Shown here piece by piece: positions 35,973 to 40,298 of a DNA stretch of 64,000 nucleotides. The number at the start of each line of letters is the position of its first letter. Position 1 is the first letter of the stretch. The position numbers and the translations under genes were made by a program. The DNA comes from Bradyrhizobium sp. CCBAU 53340 (GTDB lineage Bacteria > Pseudomonadota > Alphaproteobacteria > Rhizobiales > Xanthobacteraceae). The notes under the pieces were generated by a model. That model was not told the origin of the DNA. It worked only from the letters and a program-made list of their open reading frames with translations, and ran no database searches. The DNA is taken from assembly GCF_015291645.1 (NCBI RefSeq), contig NZ_CP030055.1, forward strand, positions 6,634,001 to 6,698,000, read 5' to 3'.

Positions 35973-36076
35973 GAGCGAAACATACGACAAATCCGAATTT
36001 CGGTAAAGTGGAATATTTTTGGTGGGCGGGATTGACAGGCCGGCGAAACAGGGGCGTGGTCGTGCCACAAATTCAG

Positions 36077-36104
36077 TGTCGTCCTGGCGAAAGCCAGGAC
36101 GACA
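36077..36104. repeat. 12-bp hairpin with GAAA loop upstream of the amidohydrolase gene
   Basis: TGTCGTCCTGGC-GAAA-GCCAGGACGACA is a perfect hairpin, 72 bases before the start codon. The TCGTCCTGGCGAAAGCCAGGACGA type is a dispersed repeat unit in related genomes from memory. It could fold in the 5' leader. Confidence 0.7.
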
Positions 36105-36175
36105 TCGAGGGATTGACATCCACCTCGGTTCTGCGGCTGGTTGGCGCGCCGGCTATCGAACGACGAGGACCACCC

Positions 36176-37303
36176 ATGCGCACCACATCGGTCGGCGTTT
36201 TCAAGATCGCCACCAAGGGCCCCGGCGACGTCTCTGGCCTGATGAGCCTGATCGACACAGGCGCGATCGATCCCGACTCCATTCTGGCCATCCTCGGCAA
36301 GACCGAGGGCAATGGCGGCGTCAACGATTTCACGCGGGAATATGCCGTCGCGGCGCTGTGCGCGGCGCTGGCGCCGAAGCTCGGCCTGGCGCCTGAAGAA
36401 GTCGAGCAGCGCATCGCCTTCGTGATGTCGGGCGGGACCGAGGGCGTGCTCAGCCCGCACCTCACGGTGTTCACGCGCCGCGAGGCCGAGCGCCCGGCAA
36501 ACATGTCAGGCAAGCGCCTGAGCATCGGCATGGCGCAGACGCGCGATTTCCTGCCCGAAGAGCTCGGCCGCTCGGCGCAGATCACCGAGACGGCCAAAGC
36601 GGTGAAGGCCGCGATGGACGATGCTGGCATCGCCAATCCTGCCGACGTTCATTTCGTCCAGATCAAATGCCCGCTGCTCACCAGCGAGCGTGTCGAGGCG
36701 GCCGCCGCACGTGGCCACAAGACGGCAACGATCAGCGCCTACGGCTCGATGGCCTATTCGCGCGGCGCTTCCGCGCTCGGCGTTGCCGTGGCGCTGGGCG
36801 AGGTCGCGCCTGAAATCTGCGATGAGGACGTGCTGCGGCGCTACGATCTGTTCTCCAAGGTCGCTTCGACCTCGTCCGGAATCGAGCTGATGCACAACGT
36901 CGTCATCGTGCTCGGAAATTCGGAAGGCTCGGCGAGCGAATTCGAGATCGGGCACGCCGTGATGAGCGACGCGATTGACGCTTCCGCCGTGACCGAGGCG
37001 CTGGCCAGCGTCGGACTTGGCGTCGGATTTGGCGTCGGATTTGGCGCGCAGGCAAAAGCCGGCCACGTGCTCGTCAACGTCTTCGCCAAGGCCGAGGCTT
37101 CGCCTGACGGCACCGTGCGCGGCCTCCGCCACACCATGCTCGAAGACACCGACATCAGCTCGACACGCCACGCCCGCGCGGCCGTCGGCGGCCTGATCGC
37201 CGGCCTTGCCGGCACCGGCGCGGTTTACGTCTCCGGCGGCGCCGAGCACCAGGGGCCGGCCGGCGGCGGGCCGGTTGCGGTGATCGCGCGGCTCTCCGAT
37301 TGA
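36176..37303 (+). CDS. Ring-opening amidohydrolase (cyanuric acid hydrolase/barbiturase family)
   Basis: 375 residues from the ATG at 36176. Three internal repeats each give a Ser-Lys pair as in AtzD-type enzymes: Lys42 (LGKTEGNG), Ser85 (MSGGTEG), Lys164 (QIKCP), Ser233/234 (STSSGIE), Lys305 (FAKAE) and Ser353 (VSGGAEHQG). All are in place, so the enzyme should be active and open the s-triazine ring of cyanuric acid or a barbiturate ring. An amidase gene follows about 108 bases later. A short tandem repeat (GGCGTCGGATTT) encodes LGVGFGVGFG near 281-290, which may be a small expansion. Translation starting further upstream would include repeat sequence. Confidence 0.9.
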   Translation: MRTTSVGVFKIATKGPGDVSGLMSLIDTGAIDPDSILAILGKTEGNGGVNDFTREYAVAALCAALAPKLGLAPEEVEQRIAFVMSGGTEGVLSPHLTVFTRREAERPANMSGKRLSIGMAQTRDFLPEELGRSAQITETAKAVKAAMDDAGIANPADVHFVQIKCPLLTSERVEAAAARGHKTATISAYGSMAYSRGASALGVAVALGEVAPEICDEDVLRRYDLFSKVASTSSGIELMHNVVIVLGNSEGSASEFEIGHAVMSDAIDASAVTEALASVGLGVGFGVGFGAQAKAGHVLVNVFAKAEASPDGTVRGLRHTMLEDTDISSTRHARAAVGGLIAGLAGTGAVYVSGGAEHQGPAGGGPVAVIARLSD

Positions 37304-38895: not shown

Positions 38896-40110
38896 CTAGC
38901 CAACGCCTCGTGCAATCGCCTTGTCGACACGCCCGCGCGACACACCATGCTCGGCGAGCAGGCGTGCCGCCGGGCTTCGCGTTTCGGCAAACAGAGCGAC
39001 CAGCGCATTGACGCCGGTCACCTCCGGATATCCGACCTCCTGGGCCAGGAACGGGGCGCGCTGATCGACGCGCTTGAATGCCGCCGTGGGCTCGGCATGT
39101 CCAGCCTCGATCACGGTGTGCTTGAGTTCATTGTCGAGATACTGCACGAGGCCTTGTCTCAGCTTGTCGAGACCGGCGTCGCAGGCGCGCATCACGGCGG
39201 AGGCGTCCGCATCATCGGTCAGGGCCAACAGCAAATGCTCCAGCGTCGCGTATTGATGGCGGCGCCGGTCAGCCTCATCAAGCGCCCGCCGTTTCGTGGC
39301 CACATAGCCTGCCGAGACCGGCCGTTGCGACAGGTCGAGCAGCGCGTCGATCCGCTCGAGCCGTTTCATGGGATCGAGCGTCGCCAACAACTCGTACTTG
39401 TCACAAACGGGCAGCTTCATCCGCGTCGCGACGGTATCGGCGATCTGCCCGGGATCACGGGTTGAATCGAAGAACAGCCAAAGGTCCGGCAGCAGAATTC
39501 CGTGAGCCGCCGTGTAGTCCTGGAAGCGTTGATAGATCCTTCGGATCAGATCCCTGGCATCGCGGACCGCGCCCTCGCTGACGTCAACGACCTCAGCCTG
39601 ATAGGCGACCGCCTCAGTCGCAAAGCTGCGGAGCGCGACGCGCCGAAGCCCGCGCGTCAGCACCTTGAACGTGCCATCCTGGAGCGGTTCAAGTTCGAGC
39701 AGTTGCGACAGGATGCCGATCTCGTAGACATCGGACAATCGGGGATCATCGACGGCTGCCTCGCGCTGGATCGCTATCACGATCTCCCGTCCACCTTCGA
39801 ACGCCTGGTTCAGAGCCCGAATGGTGCTCTCGCGGCCGACAAACAGCGGGTAAGTTGCGTTCGGAAACGGAACGAGATCTCGCAACGGAATGGCCGGATA
39901 GAGCGCCGTTGTCCTCTTGAGCCGTGCAGCCGGCACGATGGGGTCACGGCGCTCGGCGTGGAGCAGCGCCGACAGCGTGTTCCAGTCGGCCAAGCCGAAC
40001 ATTTTCGACACCAGCTCCAGGCTTTCGCTGTGACTGATGGTGACGGCCTTGGTGGTCAGGGAGTCGCGCAGGGTCTGCGCCATAGCCTTGGCATCGCGAA
40101 AATCGCGCAT
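38896..40110 (-). CDS. Three-part fusion: short glyoxalase-related domain, Lon substrate-binding domain, Clp N-type repeats
   Basis: 404 residues, with GAGGA before the ATG. Residues 1-55 (DAKAMAQTLRDSLTTKAVTI, then SHSESLELVSKMFGLADWNT) look like the short domain often attached to glyoxalase-superfamily proteins. Residues ~70-260 match the Lon substrate-binding (LAN/PUA-like) domain: IPLRDLVPFPN, VGRESTIRAL, DVYEIGILSQ, LTRGLRRV. Residues ~275-400 resemble Clp N repeats: ATLEHLLLALTDDADASAVM and ARLLAEHGVSRGRVDKAIA. There is no AAA+ ATPase or protease domain. It could present substrates to a protease; function is inferred only. Transcribed alone, convergent with the amidase (15 bases). Confidence 0.85.
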   Translation of the reverse strand: MRDFRDAKAMAQTLRDSLTTKAVTISHSESLELVSKMFGLADWNTLSALLHAERRDPIVPAARLKRTTALYPAIPLRDLVPFPNATYPLFVGRESTIRALNQAFEGGREIVIAIQREAAVDDPRLSDVYEIGILSQLLELEPLQDGTFKVLTRGLRRVALRSFATEAVAYQAEVVDVSEGAVRDARDLIRRIYQRFQDYTAAHGILLPDLWLFFDSTRDPGQIADTVATRMKLPVCDKYELLATLDPMKRLERIDALLDLSQRPVSAGYVATKRRALDEADRRRHQYATLEHLLLALTDDADASAVMRACDAGLDKLRQGLVQYLDNELKHTVIEAGHAEPTAAFKRVDQRAPFLAQEVGYPEVTGVNALVALFAETRSPAARLLAEHGVSRGRVDKAIARGVG

Positions 40111-40298
40111 CGGTTCGTCCTCTGCATGAGCGATCCAGGTGTGTCAGGTGGTTGCGTTGCTGACCCGGTCGCTCGGGCAAAGGGGGGCCGATCAAGGCTC
40201 GATACATTCACCGTACCACGGAGGGTGCAACCGGCAGGTCGTATCAACCTGCGCGAAAAGTGACGCAAAGCCGGATGGCTGTCAATCTCAGTTCTTGC

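Follow-up and report, generated by a model that had tools for sequence, protein, structure and literature searches.

What might be the function of a bacterial protein that carries the substrate-recognition domains of two different proteases? We addressed this question for a gene in a 64,000-nucleotide (nt) stretch of Bradyrhizobium sp. CCBAU 53340 (contig NZ_CP030055.1, positions 6,634,001 to 6,698,000; hereafter the window), in which a chain of 404 amino acids (aa) joins an N-terminal module to the N-domains of Lon and ClpA and is preceded by a structured leader RNA. In related genes the leader stayed with the module and the C-terminus differed. The best explanation, which we put forward tentatively, might be an autoregulated decoy or sponge with a swappable bait and control at the RNA level.

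Domain architecture of the 404-aa chain

The coding sequence and its parts were located as follows.

38896..40110, minus strand: coding sequence, 404 aa, ATG start; module, Lon N-domain and ClpA-type N-domain
39949..40110, minus strand: N-terminal module, aa 1-54, first half of PF20066 (Pfam, alignment, structure prediction)
39340..39900, minus strand: Lon substrate-binding N-domain, aa 71-257 (Pfam, NCBIfam, PDB sequence search)
38905..39285, minus strand: ClpA-type N-domain with two Clp_N repeats, aa 276-402 (Pfam, NCBIfam, PDB sequence search)

An initial annotation made from the sequence alone had proposed a module of about 55 residues, a Lon-N block and a Clp-N-like block without an ATPase or protease, and each of these parts was recovered. 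The Pfam domain LON_substr_bdg was found at aa 71-257 with 133.1 bits (cut-off 28.7), and a PDB sequence search with the 404-aa chain returned the Lon N-domain 9jwa (E=2.1e-39). Pfam also gave Clp_N in two stretches, the best at aa 276-325 (51.7 bits, cut-off 20.7), and the ClpA N-domain 1k6k matched at aa 276-402 (E=2.8e-20). NCBIfam matches to whole proteases were partial, with endopeptidase La at aa 71-259 scoring 107.6 bits, far under its cut-off of 891, and ClpA at aa 276-402 scoring 79.8 bits against a cut-off of 1350; these scores and spans indicate that only the N-domains are present. No ATPase or protease domain was reported for the chain by the Pfam and NCBIfam scans, and the ClpS domain PF02617 was absent from the Pfam scan. 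The protein therefore shares with Lon protease its substrate-binding N-domain and differs from it by lacking an AAA+ and an S16 peptidase domain. What it has of Clp is a single N-domain of ClpA type, which over aa 272-403 shares 52% identity with that of an 805-codon ClpA-type frame in the same genome, whereas the two AAA modules of ClpA are missing. In the same genome, Lon-N was also matched in two frames as long as a Lon protease (866 and 825 codons) and in one frame of 230 codons, and Clp_N was matched twice in a frame of 891 codons. ClpS was matched in two places, one of them just upstream of the ClpA-type frame.

The N-terminal module is real; PF20066 (Glyoxalase_8) was matched at aa 4-63 with 46.8 bits (cut-off 23.7). 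This match covered only positions 8-67 of the 143 profile positions: the first ~60 positions correspond to the module, whereas the second half, which in full-length PF20066 proteins is a different C-terminal domain, is absent from the 404-aa chain, and the name Glyoxalase_8 is therefore misleading here. Three helices were predicted for the module (aa 5-20, 27-37 and 43-54; mean pLDDT 70), a fold prediction of only modest quality. We also observed that the PF20066 model fuses a mobile module of ~60 residues with one particular C-terminal domain; fusions of the module may therefore be misnamed 'glyoxalase superfamily protein'.

Over its full length the protein had a median dN/dS (NG86 method) of 0.19 among 12 orthologues, the single domains gave 0.17-0.21, and these low and similar values across all three domains indicate that the gene is under purifying selection. 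The initial annotation had not recognised the combination as a described one, and indeed no named family with this architecture was present in Pfam or NCBIfam, nor were the architecture and the leader found described in the open-access literature searched by titles and abstract openings.

The leader RNA and its pairing with the module

Directly upstream of the gene lies a leader of ~125 nt that ends 17 nt before the start codon, with the following elements.

40128..40251, minus strand: structured leader RNA with two pseudoknots (model R1, 119.5 bits; the window locus belongs to the R1 training set)
40240..40245, minus strand: pseudoknot 1, 5' strand GATACG, in the P1 loop, pairing with 40201-40206
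40201..40206, minus strand: pseudoknot 1, 3' strand TGTATC
40227..40232, minus strand: pseudoknot 2, 5' strand GGTTGC, after P1, pairing with 40150-40155
40150..40155, minus strand: pseudoknot 2, 3' strand GCAACC, in the P4 loop
40177..40183, minus strand: anti-Shine-Dalgarno strand CCTTTGC of helix P6
40119..40125, minus strand: Shine-Dalgarno region GCAGAGG, paired in helix P6
40257..40285, minus strand: putative sigma-70 promoter (TTGACA at 40280-40285, 17-nt spacer, weak -10 element CACTTT at 40257-40262)

Leaders for the first alignments were drawn from a set of 173 distinct module proteins collected by genus and phylum searches. Alignment A2 represented 56 of these, chosen by architecture; 45 of the 56 (glyoxalase-type and 'other' proteins excluded) were used for alignments A3 and A5 and for model R1, and alignment A6 held 26 divergent leaders (26 of the 26 sources given), which were picked as R1 finds or derived from R1 hits. 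Comparative analysis supported a hairpin P1, a hairpin P3, a long helix P5 enclosing P4, a first pseudoknot between the P1 loop and a downstream GUAUC, and a helix P6 formed by CCUUUGC and the Shine-Dalgarno sequence GCARAGG. In the 45 leaders 93.6% of cells were paired, compared with 89.0% in shuffled and 32-42% in slid controls, and double-change cells numbered 96 versus 26.9 in the shuffles; for the 26 divergent leaders these values were 92.6% versus 70.4% (shuffled) and 34-42% (slid), with 206 double-change cells versus 61. Pseudoknot 2 was paired to 99.4% in the divergent set, the model that made this alignment having been built without it, and occurred in the variants GGTTGC/GCAACC, GCTTGC/GCAAGC, GCTCGC/GCGAGC, GCCTGC/GCAGGC, GCCCGC/GCGGGC and GTCCGC/GCGGAC. 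Covariation thus gives strong support to the predicted fold, including both pseudoknots and the helix over the Shine-Dalgarno. A structure arising by chance was ruled out by the shuffled and slid controls. The count of 'further pair types' taken alone showed no excess over shuffles in the Bradyrhizobium-centred sets (283/500 and 399/500).

Single helices differed in how constantly they were formed. P1 was among the weakest in the 45 leaders (88.9% paired) and the weakest in the 26 divergent ones (77.5%). RNAalifold on A3 gave a nested alternative in which a GAUAC/GUAUC stem and an inner stem around GCC/GGU replace the P1 hairpin, and in view of the weak P1 pairing the hairpin and the inner stem may be alternatives to each other. 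P6 was paired to 87.8% in the 45 leaders (seventh pair 88.9%), the misses falling mostly in the group with a zinc-binding domain (ZBD), where the lower half of P6 is rearranged. It also appeared in five of six single-sequence minimum-energy folds, namely that of the window's leader and four of five others. The sequence upstream of the start codon was conserved across different C-termini. The putative promoter was read from the sequence, a consensus promoter scan giving no site at 40257..40285; several ZBD-type relatives have TTGACA and TATAAT.

Neither the window nor its leader matched any of the 4227 covariance models of Rfam 15 at the gathering threshold, and at E<=10 only three hits to snoRNA families, far below their gathering scores, were obtained. 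Alphaproteobacterial leader RNAs in Rfam include SAM-II, speF, suhB, serC and ybhL, and the leader described here differs from them in matching no Rfam 15 family. Structured RNA leaders have reportedly been found in Agrobacterium and relatives as well, a trait shared with the present leader.

The leader was almost always found together with the module. A module search with alignment A1 (24 rows) across 265 genus genomes yielded 143 matches, spread over 122 of the genomes, and the leader was searched in 262 genus genomes with strict filters, by which divergent leaders could be missed. A leader match accompanied 137 of the 143 module matches and four more in fetched loci (141/143), the remaining two being gene relics. 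Conversely, 137 of 141 leader matches lay at a module gene, and the four unpaired ones comprised three degraded leaders of 46-56 bits and a strong leader (G854) that precedes only the first codons of a module gene, a remnant. With the same strict filters, class-wide screening detected the leader in 8 of 385 genomes, each time at a module gene. R1 was also applied to 17 loci encoding full-length PF20066 proteins: it matched eight at E<=0.001, four had a weak match upstream (E 0.07-0.27), one had a weak match elsewhere and four had none, which does not prove absence of the leader.

This tight pairing in spite of a changing C-terminus suggests, on comparative grounds, that the leader answers to the module and not to the bait. 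One point weighs against such a response: leader and module might be found together simply because both lie where the same gene begins, which we regard as the weaker explanation. Folds with two pseudoknots and pairing of the Shine-Dalgarno are also typical of riboswitches. In that case the leader would sense a small molecule or ion, the module proteins would form its regulon, with VOC-fold partners possibly acting on the ligand, and the module would have another task such as dimerisation. Riboswitches usually serve several unrelated genes, whereas no intact leader was found at an unrelated gene in the 262 genus and 385 class-wide genomes under the strict filters, the G854 leader lying before what is left of a module gene and the three others being degraded. 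A riboswitch therefore seems rather unlikely.

The family was also found on plasmids and in states of decay. Module and Lon-N together were matched by 74 plasmid records, and among the matches listed (25) the first 17 aligned from residue 1 through Lon-N. Of these 17 proteins, which belong to Rhizobium, Agrobacterium and Phyllobacterium, 14 are named 'LON peptidase substrate-binding domain-containing protein'. In all five plasmid loci fetched the leader ended 17 nt before the gene; several of these loci lie near repABC or transfer genes. Decayed copies indicate that the family seems to be often lost. Module-like N-termini for which no leader was detected were seen on a MvaI/BcnI-type restriction enzyme, a DUF2087 protein and proteins of viral contigs.

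Loci L292-L296: plasmid module and Lon-N with leader, Rhizobiaceae and Phyllobacterium
Loci L263, L264, L265, L266, L273, L274 and L275: copies in decay (leaders whose gene is lost or frameshifted, leaders that are themselves degraded, relics of the module)
Loci L286-L291 (viral contigs), L100 3140-4597 (plus strand) and L101 3981-4604 (plus strand): module-like N-termini, no leader detected

Patchy presence (122/265 genomes), plasmid copies, gene decay and an RNA directly upstream of its gene are features that would also be expected if the leader or a fragment of it restrained a harmful module protein. There is a precedent in AbiF, an Abi_2/Cas13-related toxin with the RNA partner RCd22 (PMC12373285). 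What the two systems have in common is a non-coding RNA linked to the gene for its protein, whereas the Abi_2/Cas13-type domain is absent here. Moreover, Shine-Dalgarno pairing by P6 is a trait of cis-regulators, the searches made gave no toxin-like match for the module, and purifying selection is similar in all domains. An antitoxin-like RNA is thus very unlikely.

Different C-termini on one module

The 173 module proteins showed a large diversity of C-termini: Lon-N with Clp-N in 39, Lon-N alone in 33, Clp-N alone in 11, a ClpX zinc-binding domain in 20, a DUF3471-like domain in 35, a glyoxalase fold in 10, a PF20066-type second half in 22 and others in three. Six further module and Clp-N proteins were found after this count. 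In the examples scanned with Pfam, the partners Lon-N, Clp_N and DUF3471 were confirmed, as was zf-C4_ClpX with 66 and 69 bits; two DUF3471-like proteins scored 33.6 and 18.7 bits, above and below the cut-off of 29.3. The most distinct combinations were the following.

L104 3983-4720 and L094 3893-4645, plus strand: module and ClpX-type C4 zinc-binding domain, with leader
L267 3076-4068, plus strand: module, Clp-N and sigma-70 region 4 in a single chain (leader 92.7 bits)
L284 4847-5471, plus strand: leader, module and pentapeptide repeats, on a contig of a viral collection

The ZBD-type proteins of L104 and L094 have an extra conserved C-terminal region, and the phage families phrog_6797 (107 positions) and phrog_12435 (65) of PHROG match the ClpX zinc-binding domain of L104. 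The C-terminus of the L267 protein is a captured sigma-factor recognition domain (49.8 bits), the only case in which Clp-N and sigma were joined. As judged from domain matches, one module is combined with the recognition domains of three AAA+ proteases, Lon, ClpA and ClpX.

More than one acquisition each of Lon-N and Clp-N is suggested by the trees. Two groups of module proteins fell on either side of the Lon-size proteins in the Lon-N tree, and in the Clp-N tree, which held one ClpA row only, the Clp-N of L243 grouped with ClpA (97/96) and apart from its relatives with the module. Because the branch of the second Lon-size frame (L129) was very long and the Lon-N tree was built without the stand-alone Lon-N protein, two captures of Lon-N are suggested rather than proved. 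Many different C-termini might also result from neutral domain shuffling, in which leader and module would be a handy 5' cassette that carries the protease domains as passengers. This is hardly credible given the dN/dS of 0.17 for Lon-N and 0.21 for Clp-N, and since three different AAA+ proteases have each contributed a recognition domain, some of these apparently repeatedly.

The variety of partners also bears on two proposals of the initial annotation. A link between the Lon and Clp systems lost its necessity, as relatives with the same module carry Lon-N alone (33/173), Clp-N alone (11/173) or other domains. The alternative, a free-standing substrate-catching adaptor, held as far as the free-standing, recognition-only chain is concerned, whereas the adaptor role became only one of several readings because the constant elements are the N-terminal module and the structured RNA leader. 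Lon-N and ClpA-N serve in substrate and adaptor docking, and as an adaptor the baits would catch degron substrates or ClpS-bound cargo, the module would deliver them to a protease or chaperone and the leader would set dosage. In line with this, the residues equivalent to ClpA E28, T81 and R86, which we take to act in ClpS binding, were invariant in 12 of 12 orthologues. Such a role would leave unexplained why the module also has glyoxalase, DUF3471 and pentapeptide partners and why it is so tightly paired with the leader, and docking would need an extra contact, since N-domains bind substrates and not the protease ring. We consider an adaptor unlikely.

A possible RNA-controlled decoy

As a decoy, the system would consist of a constant cassette (putative promoter, ~125-nt leader, P6 over the Shine-Dalgarno and the 55-residue helical module) and a C-terminal bait that can be exchanged, in the 404-aa chain the pair of recognition domains from Lon and ClpA. 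The module might bind its own leader, by which the Shine-Dalgarno would be closed and translation kept low. The bait would bind the usual ligands of the Lon and ClpA N-domains, be it a toxin or inhibitor of the protease or an excess of adaptors (ClpS, for instance) or degron substrates. Once occupied, it would weaken RNA binding by the module, translation would open, and surplus protein would act as a sponge shielding the real proteases. Drug-binding and target-shielding members are known among glyoxalase-fold and pentapeptide-repeat proteins, and such partners of the module would therefore fit a theme of protection.

We propose autoregulation at the RNA level because of the leader-module pairing and of a precedent in mycobacterial ClpC2. 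According to PMC10030653, ClpC2 represses its own promoter by binding operator DNA in its upstream region, and leaderless transcripts were suggested by the authors; cyclomarin binding to its Clp_N-like domain lifts this repression, and ClpC2 then acts as a sponge. The likeness lies in a small N-terminal domain, a stand-alone Clp_N-type domain without AAA modules, as is also found in the 404-aa chain, and a conserved upstream element; ClpC2 is thereby a precedent for both autoregulation and toxin sponging (PMC10030653). It differs in that its upstream element is operator DNA, whereas the one described here shows the features of a structured RNA, and in its ClpC-type N-terminal domain (NTD), whereas the present family also uses Lon-N, the ClpX ZBD, sigma region 4 and others. 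The module profile matched no PDB chain of the ClpC2 NTD, and a fold search was weak.

A bolder version of the decoy, which we consider doubtful, would see the new pseudoknotted leader class and the module as an inducible chassis that was repeatedly fitted with baits from essential machines, so that an attack is sensed by the decoy and answered by its mass production. With the same doubt, the baits would represent Lon, ClpA, ClpX and the housekeeping sigma factor, and the attackers might be a toxin, an antibiotic or a phage inhibitor. If true, the decoy explanation would amount to a general, RNA-controlled guarding of housekeeping machines by decoys, extend the single example of ClpC2 to several proteases and a sigma factor, and let the range of baits indicate the bacterial machines that are attacked in soil. 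Even without a decoy, a structured leader RNA outside Rfam 15 has been exposed in several alphaproteobacterial families and on plasmids, and its pairing with the module is a ready system for studying the co-evolution of a protein family and a leader RNA.

No defence family of PADLOC-DB 2023 matched the window protein at E<=0.1, and a defence system was rejected on this ground. The sole PADLOC hit among the five proteins scanned was MzaA on L267, over its sigma region 4.

Within the genus, full-length three-domain proteins were present in at least 21 of 146 genomes, own genome included, among the matches listed. One additional match ended at query residue 340, and most of the remaining matches listed were ClpA- or Lon-size frames or module and Lon-N proteins. 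A sample of 297 genomes from the order added a single full-length relative, 56% identical and placed in another genus of the family. Both flanks were common with the window in 55 of 81 rows of Lon-N and Clp-N loci, these rows including duplicate and short loci. Elsewhere in the window, the frame at 36008-37303 (plus strand) by eye resembles a ring-opening amidohydrolase of the cyanuric acid hydrolase type.
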